Shown here: positions 16,928 to 44,819 of the stretch, one piece after another | Position numbering within the stretch: position 1 is the stretch's first letter | Layout of the letters: each line of letters starts with the position of its first letter | Origin: an uncultured bacterium | GTDB taxonomy: Bacteria > Cyanobacteriota > Vampirovibrionia > Gastranaerophilales > Gastranaerophilaceae | Assembly: GCA_949298805.1 (NCBI GenBank) | Contig: CASFXY010000008.1 | Span: 1-64,000, forward strand | DNA: 64,000 bases | Reading direction: 5' to 3' | Translations under genes and position numbers: made by a program | The notes under the pieces: generated by a model | What the model was told of the DNA's origin: nothing | Seen by the model: only the letters and a program-made list of their open reading frames with translations | The model's database searches: none

Positions 16928-18685
16928 TTACACTAAGTCGCGATAAGAATTTTTAAACATGTCTTGATAAGTGGTGTGAAGAAGTTCATGAGCCTTATGT
17001 GAATTAGGCTTTTCGAGAAATTCCTCATAAAGTTTAATAATATCAGGGTTTTGGTGCGATTTTCTTAATGGAAGTTCTTTGTCTTCTTTATACAAACCAT
17101 CAGCACGCAATTCTTTGATTTTTAAATTGTCGCAACTCCTTGGTTGACCGCCACCATTTATACAACCCCCTGGGCAAGCCATTACCTCAAGTAAGTGAAA
17201 ATCAGCTTTACCATTTTTGAGTTCCTGAATGGATTTTTCTGCTTCTCTAAGTGTTGAAACAACCCTGACTTTTACTTTTGTACCCTTGATATCAATTTCG
17301 GCTTCTTTTGTCCTGTGAGATTTGTCAACACCACGCAGTGGCTTGAAATCAATGTTTTCAAGAGTTTCATGTGTTACAAATTCATAGGCAGTTCTCACTG
17401 CAGCCTCAGCAACACCGCCCGAAGCACCAAAAATCGTGCCGGCACCGGTATATTGACCAAATGGCGAATCATTATTTTCAGGTTTTATAGTTGCAAGATC
17501 AATTCCTGCTGATTTTAACATACGTGCTATTTCTTGCGTAGTAAGTACAATATCTGTCTGTGCGCGACCATTATCAAAAAGCTGACCGCGAACAGCTTCT
17601 GCTTTTTTTGCAGTGCAAGGCATTATTGATATTACATGCAAATTTTCCTCTGTGAAACCATCAAAGTATTTTGGTACAAGCTCTTTAATAACAGGGGAAA
17701 GCATTCCCTGAGGGGACTTGCAAGTTGATAAATGTTTAAGCATATCCGGATGCTGTGTTTCTAAGTACCTCACCCATGCAGGACAACAAGAAGTAAATAA
17801 GGGCAGATTTTCCCCTTTGGTTAAGCGCCCAATAAACTCGGTTGCTTCCTCCATGATGGTAAGGTCAGCAGAAAAATTAGTATCAAAGACAAGATTAAAG
17901 CCCAGTTGACGCAGCGCAGCATTTAATTTGCCTATTACATTTTCACCGGGGTTAAGTCCAAATTCTTCACCAAGCGCAACTCTAACTGACGGTGCCATTT
18001 GTACCGCGGTTTTAGCATTGCTATCATTAATTAAATCCCAAACGCGCTCTATATCAGATTTTATAGTAAGTGCACCTGTTGGGCAGACAGCTTGACATTG
18101 TCCGCAAAAAACACAGTCAACAGAGCCCAAAGCTTTTCCTGCCATTGGCTGTACAACAGTTTTGGAACCCCTGTTTGCAAATCCCAGAACACTGTGCCCT
18201 TGAAATTCAGAGCAAGCACGAACACATGCGCCGCAAAGTATACATTTATTTGGATCGCGTACAATAGATGGATTAGAATCATCGATTGGCAAGTATTCCT
18301 GAGGTTTTTTTCTTGCAAATCTAATATCCTTTATTCCATATTCCTGCGCATACTGTTGTAGTTCGCATTTGCCCGACTTGTCACAAGTTGTGCATTCGCG
18401 GTCATGGTTTGCCAAAAGTAACTCAAGTACAATTTTTCTTATTCTTCTTGTTTTTTCAGTATTTGTATGAATTTTTAACCCAGGTTCGGGCGGCATTGTG
18501 CAGGAAGATTGGATACCGCGCCCTTCAATTTCAACGACACACATTCTACAAGCACCATATTGTGTTAAATCAGGTCGGTAACAAAATGTCGGCACATTAA
18601 AACCATTATTCCTAATAACTTCCAATAAATTTTGTTCGTTTGTATATTCGCATTCTTTTCCGTTGATAAATAGTGTATTTGTCAT
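16928..18685 (-). CDS. hydA: [FeFe]-hydrogenase catalytic subunit HydA (group A, trimeric bifurcating type)
   Basis: 585 residues. Order: an N-terminal 2Fe-2S plant-type ferredoxin domain (CYRPDLTQYGACRMC, then C), a His-Cys3 4Fe-4S motif (HDRECTTCDKSGKC, about 94-107), two 4Fe-4S clusters (CILCGACVRAC and CVFCGQCQAVC), then the H-cluster domain: L1 TSCCPAW (about 297), L2 MPCTAKK (about 353) and L3 MACPGGCINGGGQ (about 501). All four H-cluster cysteines and the proton-relay cysteine are present. It makes H2 from electrons received through HydBC. This length and NuoG-like N terminus mark the trimeric NADH/ferredoxin-dependent enzyme. It follows hydB by 12 bases, with an AGAGAGG site before ATG 18685, and ends at a strong terminator. 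The maturases HydEFG are not in the window. Confidence 0.95.
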   Translation of the reverse strand: MTNTLFINGKECEYTNEQNLLEVIRNNGFNVPTFCYRPDLTQYGACRMCVVEIEGRGIQSSCTMPPEPGLKIHTNTEKTRRIRKIVLELLLANHDRECTTCDKSGKCELQQYAQEYGIKDIRFARKKPQEYLPIDDSNPSIVRDPNKCILCGACVRACSEFQGHSVLGFANRGSKTVVQPMAGKALGSVDCVFCGQCQAVCPTGALTIKSDIERVWDLINDSNAKTAVQMAPSVRVALGEEFGLNPGENVIGKLNAALRQLGFNLVFDTNFSADLTIMEEATEFIGRLTKGENLPLFTSCCPAWVRYLETQHPDMLKHLSTCKSPQGMLSPVIKELVPKYFDGFTEENLHVISIMPCTAKKAEAVRGQLFDNGRAQTDIVLTTQEIARMLKSAGIDLATIKPENNDSPFGQYTGAGTIFGASGGVAEAAVRTAYEFVTHETLENIDFKPLRGVDKSHRTKEAEIDIKGTKVKVRVVSTLREAEKSIQELKNGKADFHLLEVMACPGGCINGGGQPRSCDNLKIKELRADGLYKEDKELPLRKSHQNPDIIKLYEEFLEKPNSHKAHELLHTTYQDMFKNSYRDLV

Positions 18686-18697
18686 TTTCTACCTCTC

Positions 18698-20566
18698 TTA
18701 TGCCTGTGAAATTGCCTTAAACGGACATGCGCTTATACAAGCGCCACATTTTATACATTTTTCCTGATTAATTTTATGCGGATTTTTAACCGTACCCTCT
18801 ATGGCACCAACAGGACAATTACGTGCGCATTTTGTACACCCTTTGCAAAGTTCTTCATTAATTTTTATGACTTTAAGTGCAGTACAAACACCTGCAGGAC
18901 ACCTTTTGTCTTTAATGTGTGCAATGTATTCATCTCTAAAGTATTTTAAAGTCGAAAGAACAGGGTTTGGTGCAGTTTTTCCAAGTCCGCATAATGAACC
19001 CTCTTTAACCGCCAATGCAAGTTCTTCCAGTGTATCTAAATCCTTCATTTCCCCTTGACCGCGCACTATTTTCTCTAAAATTTTTAACATGTTTTTTGTG
19101 CCTTCACGACAGGGAACACATTTGCCACAGCTTTCATTTTGGGTAAAATGCATAAAGAAGCGTGCAACCTCAACTATGCAAGTATCTTCATTCATTACAA
19201 CAAGTCCGCCAGAGCCAACCATTGCACCTGCTTTTATAAGATTATCGTAATCCATTGGCAAATCAAGGTGTTCTTCAGTTAAACAGCCGCCTGATGGACC
19301 TCCTATTTGGACAGCCTTGAATTTCTTACCGTTTCTTATACCGCCACCGATATCAAAAACAATTTCTCTTAATGTGGTACCCATAGGCACTTCAATAAGA
19401 CCTGTGTTATTGACTTCGCCGGTTAATGCAAATGTCTTTGTACCTTTTGATGTTTCGGTGCCGAATGAAGAAAACCATTGCGCGCCTGTGTCAATAATTG
19501 CAGGCACATTTGCAAGAGTTTCGACGTTATTAATCAATGTAGGACGTCCAAAAAGACCACAGTTTGCCGGAAATGGGGGTTTTGGTCTTGGCATGCCGCG
19601 TTCACCCTCAATGGAGGCAATAAGTGCGGTTTCTTCGCCGCAAACAAACGCGCCAGCACCTTCTTTGATGTGAATATCAAAGTTAAAACCGCTTCCCATA
19701 ATATTTTTACCTAAAAATCCCTTTTCTTCCGCCTGTTTAATTGCAATTCTAAGACGTTTTATTGCCAAAGGATATTCTGCACGAACATAAATATAAGCTT
19801 CATCCGCGCCTATAGCAAAACCTGCTATTGCCATACCTTCAAGAAGTTTGTGTGGGTCACCTTCCATAACGGATCTATCCATAAAGGCACCCGGATCCCC
19901 TTCATCACCATTGCATACAACGTAAGATTTTCCACCACGGTTTGCTGCGGTAAAACGCCATTTTCTGCCGGTTGGAAAACCGCCGCCACCTCTGCCACGC
20001 AGTCCTGATTTTTCTATTTCTTCAATAACAGCCTCTGGATTATTTTGTTCTAAAACTTTTGCTAAAGCACGATAGCCGCCTACAGCAATAGCTTCATCAA
20101 TGCATTCGGCATTAATTTCGCCACAATTTTTTAGCGAGGTTCTTGTTTGTTTTGCATAAAAATTGATTTCTTCGTTTTTATAAACATGATTACCAGTTTT
20201 TGGATCGGTATACAGCAATCTTTCAACTGCTTTACCGTCCTTTATGTGCGAATTAACAATTTCCTCAACATCATCCGGTTTGACTTTTACATAAGTAATG
20301 TCAAAATCAGGAATTATAACCAAAACACCCTGTTCACAAAAACCATGACAGCCCGTTGGTACGGTAGTCATTTTGTCATGTTCACTTAAAATTGATACAT
20401 CTGCACCAAGCTCTCTGAATTTCTCCATAACCTCATTTGAGCCGTTTGCAATACAACCTGTGCCGTTGCACACCAATACTCTTAAGCCTTGTTTTTTTAT
20501 AAGTTCAACAGCCTTTTGTCGCTCTTGTTCGATATCAATGTCTAATTTTTTTACTTCAGTTTCCAT
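18698..20566 (-). CDS. hydB: Bifurcating hydrogenase subunit HydB (NuoF-like)
   Basis: 622 residues. The N terminus is a thioredoxin-like 2Fe-2S domain (VCNGTGCIANGS, then PTGCHGFCEQG). Next is the NuoF core with the FMN/NADH-binding GLRGRGGGGFPTGRKW (about residue 190) and CNGDEGDPGAF, then the SLBB region, then the NuoF 4Fe-4S motif ESCGKCVPCREGT. A C-terminal pair of 4Fe-4S ferredoxin motifs follows (CKGCTKCARNCPVGAI and CIKCGACISACPFKAI). This is the standard HydB architecture: it oxidises NADH and, with HydA and HydC, couples NADH and reduced ferredoxin oxidation to H2 formation by flavin-based bifurcation or confurcation. It lies between hydC (3 bases upstream) and hydA. Confidence 0.95.
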   Translation of the reverse strand: METEVKKLDIDIEQERQKAVELIKKQGLRVLVCNGTGCIANGSNEVMEKFRELGADVSILSEHDKMTTVPTGCHGFCEQGVLVIIPDFDITYVKVKPDDVEEIVNSHIKDGKAVERLLYTDPKTGNHVYKNEEINFYAKQTRTSLKNCGEINAECIDEAIAVGGYRALAKVLEQNNPEAVIEEIEKSGLRGRGGGGFPTGRKWRFTAANRGGKSYVVCNGDEGDPGAFMDRSVMEGDPHKLLEGMAIAGFAIGADEAYIYVRAEYPLAIKRLRIAIKQAEEKGFLGKNIMGSGFNFDIHIKEGAGAFVCGEETALIASIEGERGMPRPKPPFPANCGLFGRPTLINNVETLANVPAIIDTGAQWFSSFGTETSKGTKTFALTGEVNNTGLIEVPMGTTLREIVFDIGGGIRNGKKFKAVQIGGPSGGCLTEEHLDLPMDYDNLIKAGAMVGSGGLVVMNEDTCIVEVARFFMHFTQNESCGKCVPCREGTKNMLKILEKIVRGQGEMKDLDTLEELALAVKEGSLCGLGKTAPNPVLSTLKYFRDEYIAHIKDKRCPAGVCTALKVIKINEELCKGCTKCARNCPVGAIEGTVKNPHKINQEKCIKCGACISACPFKAISQA

Positions 20567-20569
20567 TCT

Positions 20570-21070
20570 CTAGCCCTCATTTTCCTCAGCAATAATGGTA
20601 TCTATTATTATTTTTATTGCATCTGTCGTCATTTGCGGATAAACTTTGCCATTTATGACTACTACGGGTGCAAGACCGCATGCACCAAGACAACTTACTG
20701 TTTCTACAGAAAACAAGCCGTCATCTGAAGTATACTTGCCTTCTTGTAAATTAAATCTTTGGGTTAAATATGTATAAACCGGCATGGAACCACGCACATG
20801 GCATGCGGTACCATCGCAGCATTTAACCTCATATTTTCCTTTAGGTTCTAACGAAAATTGTGCATAAAAAGTAGCAACCCCGTATACAGTTGCGGGCGAA
20901 AGTTCATCGATTTTAGTACCAATATATGTAATAGCATCTTGTGGTAAGTATCTGAACTCATCTTGCACCTTCTGCAAAATGGCAATAAGATTTGATTTTT
21001 TTGCACCACATGAATTGATGATGTCATCAACTTTTTTAAAGTTAATAACACCTGAAGTTTGAGTGCTCAT
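20570..21070 (-). CDS. hydC: Bifurcating hydrogenase subunit HydC (NuoE-like)
   Basis: 166 residues from ATG 21070, which has an AAGGAG site 7-8 bases upstream; an in-frame start 24 bases further up overlaps that site and is rejected. The fold is the thioredoxin-like 2Fe-2S NuoE family, with cluster ligands in CCDGTACHVRGS and VSCLGACGLAPVV (four cysteines) after a helical N-terminal domain (AILQKVQDEFRYLPQDAI). It passes electrons between the HydB flavin and HydA. It is the first gene of the hydCBA operon, divergent from the hydS operon across about 127 bases. A TTGATT-16-TAATAA pair in that spacer is a weak candidate promoter. Confidence 0.93.
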   Translation of the reverse strand: MSTQTSGVINFKKVDDIINSCGAKKSNLIAILQKVQDEFRYLPQDAITYIGTKIDELSPATVYGVATFYAQFSLEPKGKYEVKCCDGTACHVRGSMPVYTYLTQRFNLQEGKYTSDDGLFSVETVSCLGACGLAPVVVINGKVYPQMTTDAIKIIIDTIIAEENEG

Positions 21071-21197
21071 GAATTTCTCCTTTTTTACTAACAACCCTAT
21101 AACAAATTATTACACGCTGAATTATTAAAATCAAATATTAAATTGCCTAAATACTAGCTTTGGACTATACTTATAATGTGCAGCAGGAATCGAATAA

Positions 21198-21446
21198 ATG
21201 AATAAACAATTAAATATAACGGTTTGTTTAGGCAGCTCTTGTTTTGCAAGAGGAAACGAAGAACATTTAAATTTTATAGAGGATTACGTAGAAGAATATA
21301 ATCTTGATGCAAAAATTGATATTGCAGGCTCAAGATGTGAAGGCAAATGTGCTCAGGGTCCTAATATTACGATTAATGATAAGTTGTATTCTAATGTTAC
21401 AAAAGAAATGTTGAAAGAAATACTTGATAATTACAGGGGCAAATAA
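21198..21446 (+). CDS. Thioredoxin-like 2Fe-2S ferredoxin
   Basis: 82 residues. A small stand-alone NuoE/HydB-N-like domain with four cysteines in the expected pattern: VCLGSSCFARGN, then GSRCEGKCAQGPNITIN. Such proteins carry one [2Fe-2S] cluster and ferry electrons to hydrogenases or oxidoreductases. The stop overlaps the ATG of the group C hydrogenase (TAATG at 21444-21448), so the two are translationally coupled. A TATAAT at 21172-21177 is a possible -10 for this operon. Distinct from the second paralogue at 24337. Confidence 0.88.
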   Translation: MNKQLNITVCLGSSCFARGNEEHLNFIEDYVEEYNLDAKIDIAGSRCEGKCAQGPNITINDKLYSNVTKEMLKEILDNYRGK

Positions 21447-23164
21447 TGGACAAATTATATCCGGTCTACACTCTTAACAATGAATGCCATGACTGCTATA
21501 AATGCGTAAGAGAATGCCATGTTAAAGCAATCAGCATACAGCAGGGACATGCATCGGTTTTGCCCGAAAAATGTATTGCGTGTGGAAATTGTGTTAAAAC
21601 TTGTCCCAATAACGCAAAAAGAGTTAGAAACGACATTGAAAAAGTAAAAAATTTATTTCGTGCACAGCAGGAAGTATATGTTTCACTGGCACCGAGTTGG
21701 AGTGGAATTTTTGAATATTCCCCTTCTAAAATGATAGCTCTCTTGAAAAAATTAGGTTTTAAGCATATAAGCGAAACTGCACTTGGCGCGCAAGAAGTTT
21801 CAATTGAATGTGCAAAATACATGAAAGAAAGAGAAAAAGGACTTTTTATCTCAAGTGCTTGCCCTGTTGTAGTTGATTATATAAGGCTTTATAATCCAAA
21901 ATTTTTGCCTTGTATTACTCCTGTTGCCTCTCCCGCATTAACCCATGCAAAAATGTTGAAAGATATATATGGCGCACATATTCATGTTGTTTTTATTGGG
22001 CCTTGTATTGCCAAAAAGAATGAATCAGACAATAATCCTGATTTAATTGATGCAGCACTTACGTTTGAAGAATTAAAATTCTGGCTGCAAGACGAATTTA
22101 TTTCTGTTGATGATATTGAAGACACTGCTAATGAATCTTTTGTACCAGAATGTGCACACGAAGGGGCACTTTATCCTCTGGAAGGAGGTATGAATGAAAC
22201 AATAAAACAGGGCGCAATGGCAGATGATGTGCAATTTATTAACATAAGCTCAATAGAAAACCTTGAAAAAACTCTTAAGGGGCTTGATATTAACTCAATT
22301 AACAAAAAAATATTTATTGAAGCACTCGCTTGTAACGGAGGATGTCTGGCAGGTCCATGTGCATCTACAAAAAAATCAGAATTATTAAGAGTAAGTGATA
22401 CGCTATCCAAGGCAAAGACTAGGGATATAATCCCCAAAGAGCCTAAGACAGTTGTGAGTATAGAGTATAAACAAAAAACTGTTGAAAAACACAATTATGA
22501 TTATGAAACGGTTAGCGAGGCACTCAAAAAAATTGGAAAATACACCGAAGAAGACGAGCTTAATTGTGGTGGTTGCGGATATAACACTTGCAGAGAATTA
22601 GCATGTGCTTTATTATCCGGCGAGGCTGAACCATCCATGTGTGTTTCTTATATGAGAAAAATTGCAATGCAAAAAGCTGCCGCAATGTTAAGATGCATGC
22701 CTTCGGCAATTGTTATGGTTGATAAAGATTTAAAAATTGTTGAGTCTAACGAAGCTTTTATGAAAATGTTTTGTTCGGATATGTATGACATTTTCTCTGA
22801 AAGACCGGAAGGACTTAATGGGGCATGCATTGACAGGATTGTAGATTTTGCCGACATTTTTAAAGAAACTTTAAAAACCGCAAAAGATATTCACAAAGAG
22901 CATTATCCTGTTAAAAACAGACTTTATGATATAAGTGCGTTTTCTATTGAAAAAAATGAACTTGCGGGCGCAATTATTACTGATGTTACACAAAGTGAAC
23001 TTGGTAGAGAAAAAATTGCACAAAAAGCACATGAAGTTATTAACAAAAATATAGCAATAGTACAAGAAATTGCTTGCCTTTTGGGCGAACACATGGTTGA
23101 AACAGAGCTGTTATTAAGTACAATTGCACAAGACTATGAAACTTCGGACGGAGATAAAAAATAA
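21446..23164 (+). CDS. hydS: Group C sensory [FeFe]-hydrogenase (HydS-like) with PAS domain
   Basis: 572 residues. Two N-terminal 4Fe-4S motifs (CHDCYKCVRECHVKAI and CIACGNCVKTCPNNA) are followed by a reduced H-cluster domain: L1 SSACPVVV (about 134-141), L2 GPCIAKK (about 187), L3 LACNGGCLAGP (about 292). The four H-cluster ligands remain, but the proton-relay cysteine next to the L1 ligand is alanine, as in sensory enzymes. Then comes a 4Fe-4S FeS domain (CGGCGYNTCRELACA, then C, about 372-398) and a PAS domain (about 410-510: MPSAIVMVDKDLKIVESNEA). Family knowledge says group C enzymes sense H2 and signal through an output partner. Here the next gene, a PP2C phosphatase, overlaps by one base and is the likely output. 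Confidence 0.88.
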   Translation: MDKLYPVYTLNNECHDCYKCVRECHVKAISIQQGHASVLPEKCIACGNCVKTCPNNAKRVRNDIEKVKNLFRAQQEVYVSLAPSWSGIFEYSPSKMIALLKKLGFKHISETALGAQEVSIECAKYMKEREKGLFISSACPVVVDYIRLYNPKFLPCITPVASPALTHAKMLKDIYGAHIHVVFIGPCIAKKNESDNNPDLIDAALTFEELKFWLQDEFISVDDIEDTANESFVPECAHEGALYPLEGGMNETIKQGAMADDVQFINISSIENLEKTLKGLDINSINKKIFIEALACNGGCLAGPCASTKKSELLRVSDTLSKAKTRDIIPKEPKTVVSIEYKQKTVEKHNYDYETVSEALKKIGKYTEEDELNCGGCGYNTCRELACALLSGEAEPSMCVSYMRKIAMQKAAAMLRCMPSAIVMVDKDLKIVESNEAFMKMFCSDMYDIFSERPEGLNGACIDRIVDFADIFKETLKTAKDIHKEHYPVKNRLYDISAFSIEKNELAGAIITDVTQSELGREKIAQKAHEVINKNIAIVQEIACLLGEHMVETELLLSTIAQDYETSDGDKK

Positions 23165-24327
23165 TGTTTATCGATGTAGATTGTGCACAGGAGAAAAAAT
23201 ACAATCAAAATACATACGGTGATTATTTTTTATCAAAAAGGTATCCCGACAGCGGTGATTTAATAGCGGTCTTGTCTGACGGACTTGGCAGCGGAATTAA
23301 AGCTAACATACTTGCGACGATGACTGCTACAATGCTTTTAAAATTTGTCGAAGCCGGTGCAGATATTAAAACGGCTTGTGAGGTAATTATGAATTCATTA
23401 CCTGTCTGTCAAGTACGAAAAATAAGTTATTCTACATTTTCAGTTGCACATTGTAATGAGGATGGCGATGTTAGAATTGTTGAGGAAGGCAATCCTAATT
23501 TTATTTATATCAGTGATGGAAAAGTTCAGGAACCTGAGTTTACGGTGATTGACTCTGATACTTTTAAAAACCGCCACATGAGAGTATATAAAATGAAACT
23601 CAACCTTGGTGACAGGTTAATATTCTGCTCGGACGGAGTAACACAGGCAGGATTGGGCAATCCCGAACTTAAGTTAGGTCTGCGAAGAAGCGGGCTTATT
23701 AAATTCCTGTTGGAAAAAATTCGTTCCAATCCTGAGATTTCAAGTAATGAACTCTCGCGCTTTGCTGTGCGTGCCGCTTTAAATACCGAACCTGACAGAA
23801 AAGCTAAGGATGACACTTCCTGTTGTGTTATTTACTATCGCAAACCGCGACGTGCACTTATTTTTACCGGACCTCCATATCATCAGGATAAGGATAATGA
23901 ATATGCAAATGAATTTTTTAAGTCGACAGCCAAAAAAGCTATTTGTGGAGGCACAACTGCTAATTTAATTTCACGTGAGCTTAAAATACCTGTAAGATGT
24001 AATAATGTAAGAAGCGTAGGCAAACTTCCTGCGGTATCTGAAATGGATGGCATCGACCTTGTAACAGAAGGTATTTTAACACTAACAAAAACTGTTGAAT
24101 ACCTTGAAAACGGATTTAATGACAAGGAAAAAAATGCTGCGTATGATTTAATGCAATTTTTATTAAGCAGTGATTGTATTGAATTTATGGTTGGTGCAAA
24201 ATTAAATCAAGCGCACTACGATCCTAATTTACCGATTGAAATTGAAATTCGTAAGAATATTATAAAAAAGATGGCAAAAATTTTAGAAAACAAGTATATT
24301 AAAAAAGTCGTGCTGCGTTATATATAA
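23164..24327 (+). CDS. SpoIIE/PP2C-type serine phosphatase
   Basis: 387 residues. The PP2C core (about 1-230) has DGLGSGIKANILATMT, IFCSDGVTQAG and KDDTSCCVIYY, which provide the metal-binding aspartates of SpoIIE-type phosphatases. The C-terminal 150 residues are a separate domain (GGTTANLISREL, then VSEMDGIDLVTEG) that I recall in phosphatases linked to group C hydrogenases. It overlaps the hydS stop by one base and is followed after 9 bases by a thioredoxin-like ferredoxin. It likely converts the hydrogenase signal into dephosphorylation of a target protein; the target is unknown. Confidence 0.87.
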   Translation: MFIDVDCAQEKKYNQNTYGDYFLSKRYPDSGDLIAVLSDGLGSGIKANILATMTATMLLKFVEAGADIKTACEVIMNSLPVCQVRKISYSTFSVAHCNEDGDVRIVEEGNPNFIYISDGKVQEPEFTVIDSDTFKNRHMRVYKMKLNLGDRLIFCSDGVTQAGLGNPELKLGLRRSGLIKFLLEKIRSNPEISSNELSRFAVRAALNTEPDRKAKDDTSCCVIYYRKPRRALIFTGPPYHQDKDNEYANEFFKSTAKKAICGGTTANLISRELKIPVRCNNVRSVGKLPAVSEMDGIDLVTEGILTLTKTVEYLENGFNDKEKNAAYDLMQFLLSSDCIEFMVGAKLNQAHYDPNLPIEIEIRKNIIKKMAKILENKYIKKVVLRYI

Positions 24328-24336
24328 GGAGATAAA

Positions 24337-24600
24337 ATGAACAAAGTCACACTAAAAATATGTATGGGTACCACATGTTTTGTAATGGGGGCATCGGACT
24401 TGCAAGAGTTAACAGATATTATACCCGAAAAATATGGTGACAAAGTAGAAGTTGTCGCATCAACATGTTTGGATTTTTGTTCATCAAATACCGAATCTCA
24501 AGCACCCTATGTTATGGTAGATTATGATGTAATAAGCAAAGCTACTGTTGAAAAAGTTATTGATGCTATTGATAGAAAGTTGAAAAATGGACAAAAATAA
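24337..24600 (+). CDS. Second thioredoxin-like 2Fe-2S ferredoxin
   Basis: 87 residues, a paralogue of the 82-residue protein at 21198. Cluster ligands are in CMGTTCFVMGAS and ASTCLDFCSSN. An AAGGAG site stands 5 bases before ATG 24337, and its 3' end overlaps the group B hydrogenase start by 14 bases (ATG 24587). It is probably the electron partner of that enzyme, mirroring the arrangement of the first paralogue with hydS. Confidence 0.87.
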   Translation: MNKVTLKICMGTTCFVMGASDLQELTDIIPEKYGDKVEVVASTCLDFCSSNTESQAPYVMVDYDVISKATVEKVIDAIDRKLKNGQK

Positions 24601-26032
24601 TCAAGCTACACATTTAAAAAAAGAAATACTTATCAAAACAATAAAGGCCTTTTTATCTGACGATTTTGGCGAAAATACTAGGCTAATCCCCTTTGAAATG
24701 CGTCCAAAGGGTTCTGAAGTTCCTTATCGCTGCTGCATTTACAAGGAAAGAGAAATTTTGAGAAACAGAATTATTGCAACTCTGGGTTTTCCTATAGAAG
24801 GCTGCGATGAGAGAATTTTGCTTTCAAATTATGCTAAATGGGCGCAAGAACGACAAAAACCTGACGAACACACTCTTACTGTTTTAGAGTCCGCATGTAA
24901 GGGTTGTGTGCCAAACAGAATTTTTGTCACAGATTTATGCCAAGGTTGTGTTGCGCGCCCTTGCATTGAGAACTGCAAATTTGGTGCAATTTCTATTGTA
25001 AATGGTAAATCGCAAATTGACAGTTCAAAATGTAAGAACTGCACAAAATGCATTCAAGTCTGCCCTTATCATGCAATTGTAAAAATTGTAGTCCCATGTG
25101 AAAATGCCTGCCCTGTCGATGCTATATCAAAAGATGAACAAGGACATGCCAGAATTGATTTTGATAAGTGTATAACTTGCGGAAAATGCGTAAGTGCATG
25201 TCCTTTTGGGGCAATACATGAGAAAAGCCAAATTATTGACATATTGACAAAAATAAAAGAACAAAAAAAGGTTGTCGCATTGATTGCACCTTCAATAGCA
25301 GGACAGCTGCCTTGTAATATTTATCAGTTAAAAACAGCTTTATTAAAGTGCGGTTTTTATGATGTTTTAGAAGTTGCACAGGGCGCTGATATTACAGCAA
25401 CAAACGAAGCAAAAGAATTTGCACAAAGAATGAATGAAGGTCAAAAATTTATGACAACATCATGCTGTGCAGGATATAATAACTTAGTTGATAAGCACTT
25501 AAACGAGATTGCGCCATTCAGATCCGAAACAAAAACACCAATGTATTATATTGCTCAAATATGCAAAGAAAAATACCCTGATGCAGTTTCAGTATTTATA
25601 TCACCCTGTGTTGCCAAAAAAAGCGAAGCACTAAATAATCCTAATGTTGATTATGTTATGAACTATGAAGAACTTGGCGCGCTTTTTGTTGCTCACAGAA
25701 TTGAATTGTCCGAACTTGAAGAAACGCAATTTGATGTCGATTCATCACGCGAAGGCAGAAATTTTGGTATAACAGGAGGAGTTGCAAAATCAGTTGTAGC
25801 TGCTGATAAGGGGAATGCTGAAATAAATGCACACCTTGTTAATGGTATAAATAAAGAATCCATAAGGGCATTAAAAGGATTTGCAAAAAAAGGCGAGTGC
25901 GAATTTGGAAATTTAATAGAGGTAATGTGTTGCGAAGGCGGATGTGTTGGAGGTAATGATTGCCTTAATACTGTTAGAACTGCAACAAAAGCAATAACTG
26001 ACTTTACAAAAGATTCTAAACCACTGGAGTAA
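24587..26032 (+). CDS. Group B [FeFe]-hydrogenase
   Basis: 481 residues. An N-terminal domain of about 105 residues (LIPFEMRPKGSEVPYRCCIY) precedes a cysteine-rich region with 4Fe-4S motifs CQGCVARPCIENC, CKNCTKCIQVCPYHAI and CITCGKCVSACPFGAI, plus an extra CENACPVDAI. The H-cluster domain has L1 TTSCCAGY (about 290), L2 SPCVAKK (about 339) and L3 MCCEGGCVGG (about 446). All four ligands and the adjacent L1 cysteine are retained, but proline after them is alanine, a group B mark. Group B enzymes are poorly characterised; a ferredoxin-linked H2-evolving or H2-uptake role is inferred. It ends the hydS operon. Confidence 0.87.
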   Translation: MDKNNQATHLKKEILIKTIKAFLSDDFGENTRLIPFEMRPKGSEVPYRCCIYKEREILRNRIIATLGFPIEGCDERILLSNYAKWAQERQKPDEHTLTVLESACKGCVPNRIFVTDLCQGCVARPCIENCKFGAISIVNGKSQIDSSKCKNCTKCIQVCPYHAIVKIVVPCENACPVDAISKDEQGHARIDFDKCITCGKCVSACPFGAIHEKSQIIDILTKIKEQKKVVALIAPSIAGQLPCNIYQLKTALLKCGFYDVLEVAQGADITATNEAKEFAQRMNEGQKFMTTSCCAGYNNLVDKHLNEIAPFRSETKTPMYYIAQICKEKYPDAVSVFISPCVAKKSEALNNPNVDYVMNYEELGALFVAHRIELSELEETQFDVDSSREGRNFGITGGVAKSVVAADKGNAEINAHLVNGINKESIRALKGFAKKGECEFGNLIEVMCCEGGCVGGNDCLNTVRTATKAITDFTKDSKPLE

Positions 26033-36744: not shown

Positions 36745-38589
36745 TTACTGTTCGTCTTCAATTAATTCTTCGACTAGCTCGTCAGAATCAACTTCGTCAG
36801 GAACATCTGTAGCTTCAGGAGTTTCGAGTGTTTCATCGGCAACTTCTGTATCATCAGCCACTTCGGTTTCATCTGCAGCTTGGGCTTCTTCTTCAGCTTG
36901 TTGAGCTTCAAGCGCTTCTTGTTCTTTTGCTGCAAGCTCATCGGAGATTTTTTGACCTTCTACTTTTGCATTTGCTTCAGCAAGGTCGTTATATATTTGC
37001 AATGAATCACCAGTTATACCGAGTTGTGCAAACACGTTATCAATTTCACCACGCAATTGAGGCATAACTTCATCTTGATATTTTCTCAAGAATTCTTCAA
37101 CTTGCGTCATATCGGTACCTTGTACTGCTTGTGCAGCTTCTGCAGCTGATACATCAACACCTTGAGCTTTAAGAGCTTCTAAGTCCATATTGCTGCCGTA
37201 ATTTTCAACAAGCCAGCTTTCATCATCAAGTGTTTGATAACCAATTGTATCAACGCTTTCGTCATCGCTGAAACCTATGTCAAATGTGCCGAGCATTTGG
37301 TTATTTTCATTGTCTGCAAATCCAAAAGGACCTGTAACATTACTGTTTATTTCATCATGTTTTTGAGCAGAGATTTCAAGATCGCCCTTGCCTACCTGTT
37401 CGGTAAATTCTTCAATGCTCATAGCGCGTTGTGATTTAGTACCGTCAGCATCAATTTCGGTAATCATAACATTAACATCTTTATCGGCAAGCTCATCGCC
37501 TGTGATTGTGCCATCGCCATCAGCATCCATTGCAGACATTTCGTCCCATCCGTCACCGCCTGCAGCATCTGACTTAGCACCGACAAAGTCGTCCATTGAA
37601 TTAATTTTGCCGTCACCATCTTCATCGTAGAAGAAGTCAATTTGAATTTGACCGGCATCGCCATCGCCATCGAGGTCAAAGCCAAGACTATCACCAAAGT
37701 TTGCGCCAATAGGGTCACAAGATTTACTTTCTTCTGCTTGTTTTGCAGCCTCTTCAGCGGCTTTTGCTGCTTCGCATTCAGCTTCTTTAGCATCTATTTG
37801 AGAACCCAATTGCTTATCAATTTCAACTTTTTGACTTAATTGACCAAGCAAGTTAGACATTAATGCCATATCATTGTTAGCTGACATTATACTTACAATT
37901 GCTTCACCGAGAGAGGGGTTGAGTGCAGCTAGTGCATTTTGAACATTGGCATTAAACTCGTCTTGGGTCATTTCGCCGTTAGAGTTTTGATATTTTGCTA
38001 ATTCGTTGGCAACAATTTCTTCAGCTTTTTTCTTTTGCTCTTCTTCAATTTCTTCCATTTTAGCAAGAGCATCAGAGATTGAAGTCTCGATTTTACCCTT
38101 TAAATCTTCAATTTGTTCTTGAAGTACTTGCATCGACTGTTGATTTGCTTGACGTTGAACTTCAAGAGCATCAATTTCTTTTTGAATTTGCTCTGAAGTT
38201 TGAGTTGCTGCAGTTGCCTCAGTTTGAGTTACGCCATCAACATCTCCTACTTCATCAACAGTTGGCACATCTTGTGCAACTTCACCGGTTAGTTGAACTT
38301 GAGTTGCAGAAGCAGCAACTGTTTCATCCGGAGTAGAATTTACATTGCCATTCATAAGTGCTTCATATTCCGCATCAGAGAGATAACCTTGCAAGCTTTG
38401 TGCGCTGATAGTATAATTATCGCCGCTTGAATCTTTTAATACTAAACTGTCTGCTTTGTTAGTTCCTCCTGAAATAAAAAGCACTTCTAGAGTTTCTCCT
38501 TGTTTAAAATTTTCACCGGCAGAAGAGAGAAATCCGGTGTCGGACGCAATTTTTTTAAGTACGTCACTAAGGTTTACATTTGATCCCAT
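36745..38589 (-). CDS. Acidic EF-hand protein, putative calcium binding
   Basis: 614 residues from ATG 38589, which has AAGGATG 7 bases upstream; an in-frame ATG at 38664 lacks a site. The N-terminal 55 residues resemble an adhesive or LysM-like leader (MGSNVNLSDVLKKIAS). Next is a Q/T/E-rich coiled-coil stretch (about 135-250). Then come three Asp-rich EF-hand loops: DLDGDGDAGQIQ, DEDGDGKINSMD and DADGDGTITGDE (about residues 310-370), the last two canonical. Another long helical segment and an E/D-rich tail (VADETEVADDTEVADE) follow. No signal peptide. EF-hand loops bind Ca2+; the function is unknown. It shares the Asp loops and acidity of the LysM-like gene at 1-2325. Confidence 0.8.
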   Translation of the reverse strand: MGSNVNLSDVLKKIASDTGFLSSAGENFKQGETLEVLFISGGTNKADSLVLKDSSGDNYTISAQSLQGYLSDAEYEALMNGNVNSTPDETVAASATQVQLTGEVAQDVPTVDEVGDVDGVTQTEATAATQTSEQIQKEIDALEVQRQANQQSMQVLQEQIEDLKGKIETSISDALAKMEEIEEEQKKKAEEIVANELAKYQNSNGEMTQDEFNANVQNALAALNPSLGEAIVSIMSANNDMALMSNLLGQLSQKVEIDKQLGSQIDAKEAECEAAKAAEEAAKQAEESKSCDPIGANFGDSLGFDLDGDGDAGQIQIDFFYDEDGDGKINSMDDFVGAKSDAAGGDGWDEMSAMDADGDGTITGDELADKDVNVMITEIDADGTKSQRAMSIEEFTEQVGKGDLEISAQKHDEINSNVTGPFGFADNENNQMLGTFDIGFSDDESVDTIGYQTLDDESWLVENYGSNMDLEALKAQGVDVSAAEAAQAVQGTDMTQVEEFLRKYQDEVMPQLRGEIDNVFAQLGITGDSLQIYNDLAEANAKVEGQKISDELAAKEQEALEAQQAEEEAQAADETEVADDTEVADETLETPEATDVPDEVDSDELVEELIEDEQ

Positions 38590-38691
38590 AAAGCCATCCT
38601 TTACTAGTAATACTTGTGCTACCAAATGATTATCGGCAATGGAAAAAATAACTTTAGATTGCAATAAAAAAATATTAATATTTCGTTACAA

Positions 38692-39183
38692 TTATTTGGT
38701 ATGTAGCACTACCTTAGCAGACTTAAGTGTGGATTTTACGTCTATTACACGCTGGTTTGGACTACCCACCCAACATAAATTATTATCAAGGTTCTCTAAC
38801 TCAAATTGACCGTCGGCAATAACATCAACGTACTTTATTTCATCAATATCTTTAATGTCCTCCCATAAAAATCCTGTATAAAGCCAGATTGATTTTTCCG
38901 GAAAGAGGGTACGTGTCTTTTTTATCAGACGACAAACTTCAGAACGATTTAGCGGGTGCATAGGATCACCACCACTGAAAGTAACACCTGAAATGTGAGG
39001 TCTTGCAAGCTTTTCAAACAACTCGGACTCGGCTGCATCATCAAAATACAACCCGCCTGAAACATCCCATGTAATTGGATTTTGGCAACCTCTACAGTGA
39101 TGAGTGCAACCTGATACCCACAAAACAACTCTTAGACCGTCACCATTTAACATATCATCCGTTGTAATATCATGATAATTCAT
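38692..39183 (-). CDS. nrdG: Anaerobic ribonucleotide reductase activase NrdG
   Basis: 163 residues, normal family length. The radical SAM cluster motif CTHHCRGCQNP (CxxxCxxC) and GVTFSGGDPMHP are diagnostic. It generates the glycyl radical on NrdD at the expense of S-adenosylmethionine. The gene overlaps nrdD by one base (ATGA-type junction at 39183) and shares its riboswitch-controlled transcript. Confidence 0.95.
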   Translation of the reverse strand: MNYHDITTDDMLNGDGLRVVLWVSGCTHHCRGCQNPITWDVSGGLYFDDAAESELFEKLARPHISGVTFSGGDPMHPLNRSEVCRLIKKTRTLFPEKSIWLYTGFLWEDIKDIDEIKYVDVIADGQFELENLDNNLCWVGSPNQRVIDVKSTLKSAKVVLHTK

Positions 39184-41441
39184 TACATACTTACCCTGTC
39201 TTGTATTTCTTCCATTTTTGCATTATTTAACCTTGTATCACCGTTTACGCGGGAATAAGATAAATAGCCGTTCATTCTATCAATTTTTGTCAAATTAGAA
39301 CTTCCGCATTTAGGACAAACATCCATAGATAATTCTTTATGACCACACTCATCGCAATAAGCCAGTGAAAGATTAACACCTTCATAAAAACCCATTTCCA
39401 TAGCACGCGAAACAAGTGTGTCAATAGCTTTAGTATTATATGAAACAGGATATTTTACGTATTGAATTTTACCACCGTTAAACAAATTCCAAAACTTGTT
39501 TTCAATGTCTTGTTTTTCTATAGGAGTAAGTTTTTCAGAAACATGGCAATGAAAACTGTTAGAAACATAACCTTTGTCAGAAACTTTATCAATAATTCCA
39601 TATTTCTTTCTAAATTGCTCGACTTGCAGTCCGCAGAGATTTTCTGCAGGTGTACCGTAAATGGCATAAAGGTGTCCGTCTTGTTCTTTAAATTGTAGAA
39701 CTTTTTTATTAATATACTCCATCACTTCAAGCGCAAATGCACTATCCTCAACCAATGTTTTACCATTATAGAGCACTTGCAACTCGTTTAATGCGGTTAT
39801 TCCAAATGATGCAGTGGCAGCCTTTAAAAGCGGTTTGATTTTATCAGACGGTTTTAAATTACCTCCGTAAAATCCGCCTTCACAAAACGCAAGAGGGTTA
39901 ATCGAGGCTCTCATTTCTCCAAGATAGTCATAAGTCCTTATGTGAATTTTTCTGATAAGTTCTAAATAATAATCTAAGACTTCGTAAAAATCTTTACTCT
40001 CTAATCTTGATTTGGCAAGTATCATAGGCAAGTGCAGACTAATTGCACCCACATTAAATCTACCGACAAAAATTGGTGTATCATTTTCATCGGCAGGATT
40101 CATACCGCCTCTTTCAAACCAAGGAGATAAAAAGGCTCTGCAACCCATGGGCGAAATAACTTTTTTGTATTTTTTATAAATTGAAGCCACATAACCGTCT
40201 CCGGTTAGTGACAACCAGTCAGGATACATTGCTTTTTTACAACACTCAATTCCTGCAAGATATAAATCATGCAATTCAGCACCTTTGGTGTGCAAATTTT
40301 TATCAAACAGAAATACTAATTTCGGAAATAAAACAGGTTTTTTACAAGAATGTTTTCCTTGCCCATTTTCTCTGGTCTTAAGCATAATTAATGATGCAAG
40401 TTTTTCAAATTTGCCTTTACCTAATCCGAATGTCATTGTAATAAAAGGGTAATCTCCGCGAGAAGAAGCTACAGAGTTAAATTTATACTCCCAACCCTGA
40501 AAACCTTGTTCAAAATCTTTTTTTACATCATTTAATGCCTCTTGTGCAGCTTTTTCAAAACTCAAACCCATGCAAACATATCTGTCAAACTTTAAATCAT
40601 AAGTTTTTTGTGCGTAGGGGGACAATATTTTGTCAACTTCAGGAACGGTAAAACCACCGTATTGTTGACTTGCTGCAGCCATTATAATATCACCTATTAC
40701 ATCAAAAGCTACATCAAGACTTTTTGGCTCATTATACCAAAGATTGCCCATTTCAAAGCCGCCCTTAAGGACATTTGAAACATCAAAAAGACAACAATTC
40801 ATGGTATCTCTGCGCGCAGACATATCGTGAATATAAATATAACCGTCACGCACAGCCTGTAAATCATCAACTGTAAGAAAAAATTTTTTATATAACTCTT
40901 TGTTCAGCTGATTAAAAATTAAAGAGCGTTTTGTAGATACTAATGCAGAATCAGCATTAGAATTCTCTTTATCTCCAATGTACATTATTTTTTGGCTTTC
41001 TTGAAAAACCTTATCGAGCACGTGTACAAAATCTGTCTTGTAATTTCTGTAATTTCTGTAACTTTGGGCAACCTTAGGATTAATACTATCTAAAGCATTC
41101 TCAACAATATTATGTATTTGCGCTATGCCTACTTCAGGTTTATTAATTAAACTAACGCTGCTGTTAACATAGTTGCAAATTTCCTCAATTTGCGAATTGC
41201 TAAACTCAATAAGAACCCTTGCTGCCGACTTTCTTATGGCGCATACAACCTTATCAATATTATACTTTTCTTTTGTGCCGTCCTTTTTCACAATTAGCAC
41301 GTTGGTGAGTACAGCACAGTCAACACCAATGAAATCATTTTTAAATTCCAAACTTTTTTCTCTTGCGAATTTGACAGTTTCACCAAGAGCAAGCGGTTTA
41401 AATGGAACCACCTTCTCATCACAATTGGATGCATTTTGCAT
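39183..41441 (-). CDS. nrdD: Anaerobic (class III) ribonucleoside-triphosphate reductase NrdD
   Basis: 752 residues. The N-terminal ATP-cone (about 45-135) is followed by the catalytic barrel and a C-terminal zinc ribbon (CDECGHKELSMDVCPKCG). The glycyl radical site is G725 in RMNGYLS. It reduces ribonucleotides to deoxyribonucleotides without oxygen or cobalamin; formate, which PflB in this window would produce, is the usual reductant for this class. An AGGAG at 41447-41452 precedes ATG 41441. A cobalamin riboswitch lies immediately upstream, so it is expected to be made when B12 is scarce. Confidence 0.95.
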   Translation of the reverse strand: MQNASNCDEKVVPFKPLALGETVKFAREKSLEFKNDFIGVDCAVLTNVLIVKKDGTKEKYNIDKVVCAIRKSAARVLIEFSNSQIEEICNYVNSSVSLINKPEVGIAQIHNIVENALDSINPKVAQSYRNYRNYKTDFVHVLDKVFQESQKIMYIGDKENSNADSALVSTKRSLIFNQLNKELYKKFFLTVDDLQAVRDGYIYIHDMSARRDTMNCCLFDVSNVLKGGFEMGNLWYNEPKSLDVAFDVIGDIIMAAASQQYGGFTVPEVDKILSPYAQKTYDLKFDRYVCMGLSFEKAAQEALNDVKKDFEQGFQGWEYKFNSVASSRGDYPFITMTFGLGKGKFEKLASLIMLKTRENGQGKHSCKKPVLFPKLVFLFDKNLHTKGAELHDLYLAGIECCKKAMYPDWLSLTGDGYVASIYKKYKKVISPMGCRAFLSPWFERGGMNPADENDTPIFVGRFNVGAISLHLPMILAKSRLESKDFYEVLDYYLELIRKIHIRTYDYLGEMRASINPLAFCEGGFYGGNLKPSDKIKPLLKAATASFGITALNELQVLYNGKTLVEDSAFALEVMEYINKKVLQFKEQDGHLYAIYGTPAENLCGLQVEQFRKKYGIIDKVSDKGYVSNSFHCHVSEKLTPIEKQDIENKFWNLFNGGKIQYVKYPVSYNTKAIDTLVSRAMEMGFYEGVNLSLAYCDECGHKELSMDVCPKCGSSNLTKIDRMNGYLSYSRVNGDTRLNNAKMEEIQDRVSM

Positions 41442-41446
41442 AAAAA

Positions 41447-41555
41447 ACTCCTATTAGTCTCGTAATAATCAATGTAGATTAAGCATTCCGACTTTAACGG
41501 CTGCGGACCAGTGAGGGAATTACACCCTACTTTCCTTAAAATACTTTCTTATGAT
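41447..41555 (-). promoter_or_regulatory. Cobalamin riboswitch upstream of nrdDG
   Basis: Read on the minus strand, the leader holds the cobalamin riboswitch core in order: AAGGAAAGTAGGGTGTAATT (as consensus GGGAA..GGUGaAAaUCC), then CCCTCACTGGTCCGCAGCCG (as CUG.CCCGCAaCcGU), then AAAGTCGGAATGC (the B12-box end). A 9-bp helix closes the core: AAGTATTTT (41538-41546) with GGAATGCTT (41481-41489). The L5 loop GUAAU can pair with AUUAC at 41462-41466, consistent with the L5-L13 kissing loop. That hairpin's 3' side runs into the AGGAG ribosome site, so B12 binding would block translation of nrdD. Confidence 0.82.
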
Positions 41556-41776
41556 AATACAAAATTTAAACATGTAAACACGTATGAAAAAAAATAATTC
41601 AAACAAAGTAATGGCAAGCAAAAATATGACTTTACATAACTTAACATTTTAAAATCTTTACAATTTGACAATAAAATTAGTTATGGCTAAAATTTTATTG
41701 ACGGTTTCACCAAATTTTTACTAATTTGCCGACAGCACACATTAACAACAATAGATATAATTTAAAGGAGAAAATA
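41556..41776 (+). other. Intergenic spacer between nrdD leader and pflB
   Basis: AT-rich divergent region of 221 bases. It carries the pflB promoter (41665-41693) and must carry the nrdD promoter. Nothing else is seen: no ORF with a ribosome site and no further RNA motif. Confidence 0.5.
41665..41693 (+). promoter_or_regulatory. Strong promoter of pflB
   Basis: Perfect -35 TTGACA (41665-41670), 17-base spacer, -10 TAAAAT (41688-41693). The leader to ATG 41777 is about 77 bases. Confidence 0.7.
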
Positions 41777-44029
41777 ATGGATTGTACTCTTAGTATGACT
41801 ATGCCTTGCTGGCAAGGTTTTAATAACGGCACTTGGCAAAATACCATAGATGTCGTAGATTTTATACAAAATAATTACACACCCTATGACGGCGATGACA
41901 GCTTTCTTATGCCTGCAACGTCAAGAACATTGAACATCTGGGATAAAGTAAGAGAATTAATGAAAAAGGAACTTGAAAATAACGGACTTTTAGATGCCGA
42001 TGTTTCAACACCCTCCGAAATCGATGCATATAATGCCGGCTATATCGATAAAGACAACGAGATTATTGTCGGCTTGCAAACTGATGCCCCCCTTAAACGA
42101 GCTATTATGCCATGTGGAGGACATAGAATGGTAGAAGCATCTTGCAAGGCATACGGACTTAAAGAGGACGAAAAAGTCAAAGAAATTTTCACTAAATACA
42201 GAAAAACTCATAATGAAGGAGTCTTTCAAGCATATACGCCTGAAATTCGTGCATGTAGAAAAAGCGGAATTATAACCGGATTACCCGATGCGTACGGACG
42301 CGGGCGTATTATAGGCGACTACAGGCGCGTTGCACTTTATGGAATTGACAGGTTAATAGAAGAAAAAATTTCCGAAAAGGCTACTTCGGACAATTTAAAT
42401 ATGACTTCTGACATAATCCGCGAAAGAGAAGAATTGTCAGAACAAATTCTTGCCTTGGAAGCCATGAAACGAATGGCGCAAACTTACGGATATGACATCT
42501 CAAAACCTGCAAATAACTTCCGTGAAGCTGTTCAATGGACCTATTTTGCTTATCTGGCTGCAATAAAAGACCAAAATGGGGCAGCAATGTCGCTGGGCAG
42601 AGTCTCAACATTTTTAGATATATATTCCGAAAGAGATATTAAAAGAGGCTTGCTAACAGAAGAACAAGCGCAAGAAATAATGGATGACTTTGTAATTAAA
42701 TTAAGAATGGTCCGTTTCTTAAGAACACCGGAATACAACGAACTTTTTAGCGGCGATCCTGTATGGGTGACAGAATCAATAGGTGGCATGAGCGATGATG
42801 GCAGAACACTTGTTACAAAAAACTCCTACAGAATGCTGCACACGCTTACTAACTTGGGTCCTGCACCCGAGCCAAATATGACCGTTCTGTGGTCTGTCAA
42901 TTTACCTGAGAATTTTAAAAAATTCTGTTCAAAATTGTCGATTAACACATCGTCAATTCAATACGAAAACGATGATTTAATGCGCCCCATGTTTGGGGAC
43001 GATTATGGTATTGCCTGCTGCGTTTCACCTATGATTATAGGAAAAGAAATGCAATTTTTCGGCGCAAGGGCAAATCTGGCAAAAGCATTGTTATATGCAA
43101 TAAATGGCGGCGTTGATGAAAAATCTTTTGCAAAAGTTGTAAGCGGGTTTGAACCAATCACATCTGAATATTTAAACTATGATGAAGTTATGGAAAAATT
43201 CGATGCAATGATGGAATGGCTGGCAACTACTTATGTTAATGCGCTGAATATTATTCATTTTATGCACGACAAATACTATTATGAAAAGGCACAGCTTGCA
43301 CTTATGGAACAGAATGTCGTAAGGAAACTGGGTTGCGGAATAGCCGGTTTTTCAGTTACGGTTGACTCGCTTAGTGCCATAAAATACGCAAAAGTGAAAC
43401 CCATAAGAAATGAGCAGGGAATAGCAATTGATTTTGAAATAGAAGGTGATTTTCCAAAGTTTGGCAACAATGATGACAGGGTTGATGAAATTGCAACAAA
43501 ATTAGTTGAAAAATTTATGCAAAAAATTGAAAAATTGCCGACTTACAGAAATGCTATTCCTACACAATCAATTTTAACAATTACGTCAAACGTAGTCTAC
43601 GGCAAAAAAACAGGCAATACACCTGATGGAAGAAAATCAAACGTACCTTTTGCACCTGGTGCAAATCCTTTACATGGGCGCGATGAATGTGGCGCACTGG
43701 CTTCACTTTGTTCTGTTGCAAAATTACCTTTCAAATATGCAAAAGACGGCATATCAAATACATTTTCAATTATTCCAAGCTCTTTGGGCAAAACAGAGCA
43801 AGACAGAATAAATAATTTAAAAGGGATGCTTGACGGGTATATGACCAACATGGGACAGCATATAAATGTAAATGTTTTAGATAGAGAAACACTAAAAGAT
43901 GCAATGGAGCATCCTGATAAATACCCGCAACTTACTATCAGGGTTTCAGGCTATGCAGTAAACTTTATTAAATTAACAAGAGCGCAACAGGAGGATGTTA
44001 TTTCAAGGACATTCCATGACAAATTCTGA
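41777..44029 (+). CDS. pflB: Pyruvate formate-lyase (formate C-acetyltransferase)
   Basis: 750 residues from ATG 41777, which has AAAGGAG 6 bases upstream; in-frame codons above it overlap the leader and lack a site. The catalytic cysteine pair is in GIACCVSPM and the C-terminal glycyl radical is G725 in RVSGYAVNF, with GNTPDGRK and HINVNVLD typical of true PFL. It splits pyruvate with CoA into acetyl-CoA and formate in the cytoplasm under anoxia. It overlaps pflA by 14 bases. Its formate can serve NrdD, encoded divergently. Confidence 0.96.
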
Positions 44030-44819
44030 TTATAAATTAAGCGCAGGTTATCCCCCTGCGCTTTTTGATAAAAAGATAAATAATAAAATAGGTTACATTC
44101 ACTCAATATTAACAGGTGGAACACTGGATGGACCAGGGATAAGGTATGTTATATTTTTTCAAATGTGCCCGTTTCGCTGTAAATATTGTCACAACCCCGA
44201 CACTTGGTCTATAAATACTCTAGGTATTAAAACTGTTGATAGTATATATAAGGACATTGTAAAATATATTAATTTTTTCAAATTTAGTGGCGGCGGAGTT
44301 ACTGTGTCAGGCGGTGAACCCCTTTTGCAAGCTGAATTTCTGTACGAATTATTTAAAAAATTAAGCGCTGATGATATAAATATTGCAATAGATACTTGCG
44401 GTTATATTGACTTAACACAAACCGTAAAAGAAGTTCTAAGCCTTAGCAACCTAATATTACTAGATATAAAACATCTGGATTCAAAAATTCATAATGAACT
44501 TACGGGAAAAGACAATGCCAAAGTTTTAAATTTTTTAAAATATTTAAAATCAATTAACAAAAAAGTCTGGATAAGGCAAGTCCTTGTGCCTACATATACA
44601 ACTAGTGAAGAATATATAAATAATTTAATCTTGTTTTTAAATGCATACAAAAATATTATCGATAAAATTGAATTGCTGCCATACCACAAAATGGGTAAAG
44701 AAAAATGGGAAAAGCTCGGGCTAAAATATTCGCTTAACGTAGAACCGCCTGACAAAAAAATTGTTGATAAAATAAAAAAACAGTTCGAGAATAACGGTTA
44801 CGAAGTGCTAGTTTCCTGA
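44016..44819 (+). CDS. pflA: Pyruvate formate-lyase activating enzyme
   Basis: 267 residues from ATG 44016 (AAGGA 6 bases before it). The ATG at 43995 directly abuts GGAGG and is unlikely. The radical SAM motif [14 protein letters not shown] and the GGE motif [11 protein letters not shown] are diagnostic of PFL activases. It installs the glycyl radical on PflB using SAM and a 4Fe-4S cluster. The family's usual start is a little before [16 protein letters not shown]. The first 20 residues here ([10 protein letters not shown]) are an extra N-terminal tail. The 3' end overlaps the convergent glycosyltransferase by 12 bases. Confidence 0.95.

Follow-up and report, generated by a model that had tools for sequence, protein, structure and literature searches.

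The class III ribonucleotide reductase operon nrdDG in a 64,000-nucleotide (nt) stretch of DNA from an uncultured member of the Gastranaerophilaceae (contig CASFXY010000008.1) is preceded by a compact class II cobalamin (AdoCbl-II) aptamer. The whole stretch (64 kb) is called the window here; coordinates of the riboswitch and the genes follow its numbering, and nrdDG lies on its minus strand. On comparative grounds it is highly likely that the element is a functional cobalamin riboswitch repressing nrdDG, and very probably it shuts off NrdDG as a spare enzyme when B12 is available. The B12-dependent class II reductase NrdJ is encoded elsewhere in the same genome, and among relatives the switch on nrdD follows the presence of NrdJ.

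When the window was scanned with the whole Rfam library, RF01689 (AdoCbl-II) was the sole riboswitch family reported (E = 4.6e-9). The match covered the full model (1-81 of 81) in an aptamer of only 80 nt, which ends 31 nt upstream of nrdD. A preliminary description of this DNA had proposed a cobalamin riboswitch at nrdD and named RF01689 and RF00174 as the covariance models to consult. The proposal is borne out by RF01689, which scored above its gathering threshold; RF00174, the class I cobalamin riboswitch, gave no match at gathering in the window, and the element is not assigned to class I. The conserved core typical of AdoCbl-II (GGAAA, CCGCAGCCGU and AGUCGGAAUGCU) is present together with compensating helices. 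In 33 aligned nrdD leaders the core was invariant while the helices changed in compensation, seven pairs showing double-sided changes.

The helix closing the aptamer consists of eight pairs around a 2x2 mismatch. Its pairing is kept in the 33 nrdD leaders by changes on both sides, one pair for example being C-G in 13 leaders, A-U in ten and U-A in one. The closing helix of the preliminary description is therefore real, but the nine consecutive pairs given for it are not.

The kissing loop had been placed differently. An L5-L13 complementarity of GUAAU with AUUAC (41462-41466) had been suggested, but this pairing was found in 16 of 40 nrdD leaders, where 13.3 are expected on shuffling (p = 0.18), and it is abandoned here. 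GUAAU is the loop of P4, and AUUAC (41466-41462) comprises the P13 5' strand plus one base of L13. The complementarity was instead found between GUCCG in the loop of P5 and CGAGAC in the loop of P13, with the pairs G-C, U-A, C-G, C-G and G-C and a bulged A after the third. Compensated versions of it were observed in leaders of two gene families (GUCCG/CGnGAC, GACCG/CGGaaAUC, CUGCCG/CGuGCAG, CAGCCG/CGuGCUG, CUGGCG/CGCaCAG and GAUCG/CGAaaUC). Over 93 leaders, with L13 set by hairpin geometry alone, L5 and L13 formed 4.5 pairs on average compared to 3.6 after shuffling, and none of 2000 shuffles reached the observed value; the same result (0 of 2000) was obtained when the test was repeated on the 48 distinct types. 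The aptamer is thus linked to the expression platform by a kissing loop, as is expected of the AdoCbl-II class.

With two bases of its 3' strand, P13 extends into the start of the Shine-Dalgarno (SD) sequence of nrdD, which confirms the earlier observation that a hairpin runs into the AGGAG of this gene. In relatives the P13 sequence varies while its pairing is kept (UUAUUA/UAAUAG, CUUUA/UGGAG, CCU/AGG, CUU/AAG and CCA/UGG, in a survey where the match to L5 helped in choosing the hairpin), and in nearly all nrdD leaders P13 overlaps or abuts the SD. Upstream of the aptamer a sigma-70-like promoter was found, and the final T of its -10 hexamer is nearly invariant among nrdD leaders. Since the promoter-like site ends at 41551, the transcript would begin just 5' of the closing helix.

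Table 1. Features of the nrdDG leader and operon, in the order of transcription (window coordinates)
Feature	Position	Strand	Basis or remark
Sigma-70-like promoter TTTACA-16-TATCAT	41551..41578	minus	consensus scan, 10/12 matches
AdoCbl-II aptamer	41473..41552	minus	RF01689, 49.7 bits, gathering 36.5
Closing helix, 5' strand (GUAUUUUAAG; GUA-UU-UUAAG)	41535..41544	minus	pairs with 41474-41483; compensatory changes in relatives
L5 GUCCG in hairpin P5 (CUG/CAG)	41504..41508	minus	complementary to L13, one base bulged; co-variation
Closing helix, 3' strand (CUUAAUCUAC; CUUAA-UC-UAC)	41474..41483	minus	pairs with 41535-41544; compensatory changes in relatives
P13, 5' strand UUAUUA	41463..41468	minus	pairs with 41451-41456; sequence varies, pairing kept in relatives
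L13 CGAGAC, kissing-loop partner of L5	41457..41462	minus	hairpin geometry, co-variation
P13, 3' strand UAAUAG	41451..41456	minus	includes bases 1 and 2 of the Shine-Dalgarno sequence
Shine-Dalgarno sequence AGGAG of nrdD	41448..41452	minus	sequence; 6 bases 5' of ATG at 41441
nrdD, class III anaerobic ribonucleotide reductase, 752 amino acids	39183..41441	minus	TIGR02487, 549.1 bits, cut-off 326.35
nrdG, NrdD-activating radical SAM enzyme	38692..39183	minus	TIGR02491, 174.3 bits, cut-off 126.1; overlaps nrdD stop

The genes downstream of the switch were identified as nrdD and nrdG by TIGR02487 and TIGR02491 matches above the curated cut-offs, as had been assigned before. NrdD carries an ATP cone, the glycyl radical motif RMNGYL and CxxC pairs, and together with the NrdG activase it constitutes a B12-independent enzyme. 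The B12-dependent class II reductase that had been predicted to lie elsewhere in the genome was found on another contig (C15), where NrdJ matched TIGR02504 with 739.7 bits (cut-off 399.95) and also exceeded the cut-off of the NF006417 'vitamin B12-dependent' model. A profile search of the genome identified no class I NrdB and no second PF02867 protein besides NrdJ; a class I reductase as the partner enzyme is thereby ruled out. No riboswitch was reported at the nrdJ locus (L003) in a permissive Rfam scan. Two adenosyltransferases of the CobA/BtuR type are encoded in the genome, which indicates that coenzyme B12 can be made; an adenosyltransferase of the PduO type is absent. The NrdJ open frame (L003:895-3309, minus strand) has 812 amino acids, compared to mostly 660-700 in relatives, and contains, after the catalytic domain and before the zinc ribbon at the C terminus, a tandem repeat of TTQATAGAIGASDELDPS units that is partly read as N.

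The relation between the switch and NrdJ was analyzed in 117 family genomes, almost all of which reach a completeness of 95% or more. For 93 further nrdD genes the DNA upstream was searched by pattern, and those in which the pattern was not detected were searched with Rfam in permissive mode. NrdD was identified in 86 genomes and NrdJ above its cut-off in 82, with both in 51 and at least one of the two in all 117. A switch on nrdD was present in 43 of the 51 genomes with both reductases and in one of the 35 that have NrdD alone (Fisher p = 4e-15, with no correction for relatedness). Counted by gene, the numbers were 45/53 and 1/41. Genomes without NrdJ contributed 40 nrdD loci that lack a switch, and a permissive scan of these with the full Rfam library reported no riboswitch at all. 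In three genomes of one genus (G006, G099 and G119; loci L060, L055 and L080, respectively) an nrdD without a switch of its own adjoins a riboswitch on the opposite strand, which was not counted for nrdD; in related genomes this riboswitch belongs to the orphan operon described below. The substitution logic put forward earlier, in which a B12-dependent reductase takes over from NrdDG when B12 is present, is thus supported both by the NrdJ of the source genome and by the distribution among relatives. Short of proof, the cross-genome pattern supports substitution more strongly than the occurrence of NrdJ in a single genome.

Because P13 runs into the SD, the switch most likely acts by blocking the translation of nrdD. 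Binding of cobalamin would favour the L5-L13 kissing loop, which in turn would stabilize P13, and P13 with the docked loop would mask the SD, so that ribosomes could not start on nrdD. Expression of nrdG would fall together with that of nrdD, because the two genes overlap. A kissing loop is known to stabilize P13 and the ribosome binding site hairpin in the Escherichia coli btuB and env8HyCbl riboswitches, and in env8HyCbl this loop includes a bulge as well as a mismatch (PMC10653944). With plentiful B12, deoxynucleotides would be supplied by NrdJ, which depends on adenosylcobalamin (AdoCbl); once B12 is exhausted, P13 would open and NrdDG would take over.

Several observations weigh against this interpretation. 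The closing helix of the window copy is interrupted by its mismatch, and the minimum free energy fold of the nrdD leader alone is unremarkable compared to shuffled sequence (z = -1.3); the evidence for the riboswitch is therefore comparative and not energetic. In eight genomes with both reductases nrdD has no switch, and in one genome (G072) nrdD has a switch and NrdJ was not found, although G072 and an NrdJ bearer (G098) have almost identical NrdD proteins. Among five phylogenetically independent pairs, two to three were concordant and none reversed, which is too few for significance. In two relatives (loci L129 and L133) the start codon lies ∼90-120 nt past the aptamer and P13 more than 60 nt from the start, so that simple masking of the SD may not apply there and the mechanism may differ. 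Finally, no FecCD/BtuC permease of the canonical B12 uptake route was found in the source genome (BtuM- and ECF-type importers were not searched for), nor was CbiC, a marker of de novo synthesis. Of the genes suggested for a genome search in the preliminary description, nrdJ was thus recovered and the B12 uptake genes were not.

That the ligand is a cobalamin is argued for by one relative (G038), in which the same RNA class precedes btuB-btuC-btuD-btuF. The switch might sense methylcobalamin (MeCbl) or hydroxocobalamin (OHCbl) and report total or light-exposed corrinoid instead of the coenzyme of NrdJ. The class II riboswitch env8HyCbl, for example, is a member that binds OHCbl. This riboswitch, which is named in PMC10653944, and the division of class II into Cbl-IIa and Cbl-IIb (PMC11124144) give this alternative some weight, but NrdJ, the alternative enzyme, needs AdoCbl and two adenosyltransferases are present in the genome. 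A ligand other than AdoCbl is therefore considered possible, but rather unlikely.

Control could also be exerted on transcription, cobalamin favouring early termination or Rho-dependent arrest and not a block of the ribosome. Some cobalamin riboswitches do terminate, such as the P. megaterium metE switch (PMC10653944), and much of the nrdAB transcription in Propionibacterium acnes apparently stops before the first gene (PMC3848588). However, no intrinsic terminator or terminator-like hairpin was detected in 41380-41800, P13 reaches into the SD a short distance before the start codon, and the P13 sequences diverge while their pairing beside the SD is conserved. From this anatomy we infer that transcriptional control is improbable and that P13 sequesters the SD, with stabilization of P13 by the ligand as a prediction.

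The association of the switch with NrdJ might reflect shared ancestry only, if the switch had a single origin together with nrdDG in a clade that also retained NrdJ and no substitution takes place. Consistent with this, the two traits show clustering on the NrdD tree, with 8 and 7 changes, and the independent pairs do not reach significance. However, the switch/NrdJ pattern is seen in both clades of the NrdD tree, which a very long branch separates, all informative pairs point in the same direction, and the rule has been described for unrelated phyla (PMC545781, PMC3848588). Ancestry as the sole cause is thus judged very improbable, and substitution is preferred. The family as a whole holds two very distant NrdD lineages, and some genomes carry both. 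A decayed or chance match that forms no functional riboswitch, to which the unremarkable single-sequence fold might point, can practically be dismissed given a covariance score well above the curated threshold and the invariant core and compensating helices of the 33 nrdD leaders.

The nrdDG switch is one of several genomic settings of this RNA class. RF01689 was found in 268 of the family's 288 genomes. Most sampled copies lie ahead of an orphan operon of two genes, as seen at 25 of the 30 best loci and, in a second sample, for 21 of the 31 pattern matches. Other copies precede nrdD, or a TonB receptor followed by BtuC (G038, L181:3769-8254, minus strand; and G178, L148, with a btuB-like and then a btuC-like gene). 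In the source genome the orphan operon is located on contig C1 (L134:6409-8790, minus strand) behind a sub-threshold switch of 33.8 bits. Its gene A (∼230 amino acids) contains an invariant CPHG...CPxC...C motif, and gene B (∼500 amino acids), all-helical in a low-confidence model, probably encodes a membrane protein. At 80 gene A loci (L185-L264), chosen by the protein alone, the switch was recognized in 66 by pattern and in 13 by eye; the one further locus is truncated upstream by a contig end, so that all 79 loci with enough upstream sequence carry it. Gene B adjoins gene A in 79 of the 80.

No Pfam family was found for either protein. Gene A was considered as a cobalamin adenosyltransferase and rejected, as the Pfam matches (E = 0.023-0.32) stayed below the cut-off and covered a generic helical stretch. 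Structure models were of low confidence, with predicted local distance difference test (pLDDT) values of 58 for gene A and 63 for gene B, and a fold search with the gene B model returned nothing below E = 0.07, all matches being long-helix artefacts. A FecCD/BtuC-type permease was identified in 5 of the 117 genomes and not in the other 112, with the same restriction regarding BtuM- and ECF-type importers. The near-universal switch on the orphan operon, combined with scarce FecCD permeases in the family and no CbiC in the source genome, which nevertheless has NrdJ and adenosyltransferases, makes this operon a candidate for a role in acquiring or handling B12. It is conceivable, with the odds somewhat against it, that the nrdDG switch belongs to a B12 regulon with the orphan operon as its main member in Gastranaerophilales, and that this operon forms or serves an undescribed system for acquiring or handling corrinoids.

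Other features were noted in the window. Divergent from nrdDG, and sharing its intergenic region, are the genes for pyruvate formate-lyase and its activase (41726-44819, plus strand; TIGR01255 and TIGR02493); a TTGACA-17-TAAAAT promoter-like site lies between the two operons (41665-41693, plus strand). Assignment of the riboswitch to this divergent operon was ruled out by its strand and by the overlap with the SD of nrdD. Directly after nrdG an acidic protein of 639 amino acids is encoded (36745-38664, minus strand), for which no family was found and EF-hand matches were weak and below the cut-off. Going by the translations alone, genes of [FeFe]-hydrogenase-like and NuoE/NuoF-like type that include ferredoxin domains are clustered at 16928-26032, and a low-complexity open frame with repeated YQVLYPELVL-like units is found at the window start (18-578, plus strand).

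Cobalamin switches on nrdDG with NrdJ in the genome have already been published, and the arrangement is thus not new in kind. In Desulfovibrio vulgaris and Desulfuromonas, B12 elements precede nrdDG in genomes that encode NrdJ, and the same substitution logic was proposed in 2004 (Rodionov et al., 2004, PMC545781). These bacteria belong to another phylum, and the relevant passages of that report describe a general B12 element, not specified as class II, and contain no cross-genome test of switch against NrdJ. In P. acnes, cobalamin riboswitches are found on nrdAB and nrdDG and not on nrdRJ (PMC3848588); as here, B12-independent reductases are under a cobalamin riboswitch and nrdJ is free of one, but the lineage is another and the class I nrdAB of P. 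acnes is absent from the source genome. Ca. Chlorobium antarcticum, again of a different lineage, carries a cobalamin riboswitch on its B12-independent nrdD (PMC8620254). The coenzyme B12 riboswitch of Streptomyces nrdABS (Borovok et al., 2006, as cited in PMC8620254) is described there as repressing a reductase that NrdJ makes dispensable, in that case a class I enzyme under transcriptional control. The first listing of the AdoCbl-variant family (Weinberg et al., 2010, PMC2864571) was for marine sequences. The present element shares with this family (RF01689, including env8HyCbl) the compact aptamer, the bulged kissing loop and control at the ribosome binding site, the last being predicted here; it differs from that listing in its gut lineage and in its location on class III reductase genes, the orphan operon and a few btuB-btuC genes. 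No report of B12 riboswitches in Gastranaerophilales or Melainabacteria was found in the literature searched, which excluded most subscription journals. The remark in the preliminary description that such a switch was unfamiliar on a class III operon in this lineage accordingly holds for the lineage, but not for class III operons elsewhere (PMC545781, PMC3848588, PMC8620254).

What is new is the class II aptamer, the Gastranaerophilales lineage and the cross-genome test. The last puts riboswitch-based isozyme substitution to a clean comparative test, in which the switch on nrdD tracks the B12-dependent partner in 117 genomes. Control of nrdDG is extended to a compact class II aptamer and to a non-photosynthetic, animal-gut sister lineage of the cyanobacteria. 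The finding also exposes a B12 regulon, with an uncharacterized operon as its possible chief member, in bacteria that mostly lack a BtuC-type B12 importer, and it makes the acquisition of B12 by these gut bacteria a concrete and testable question.

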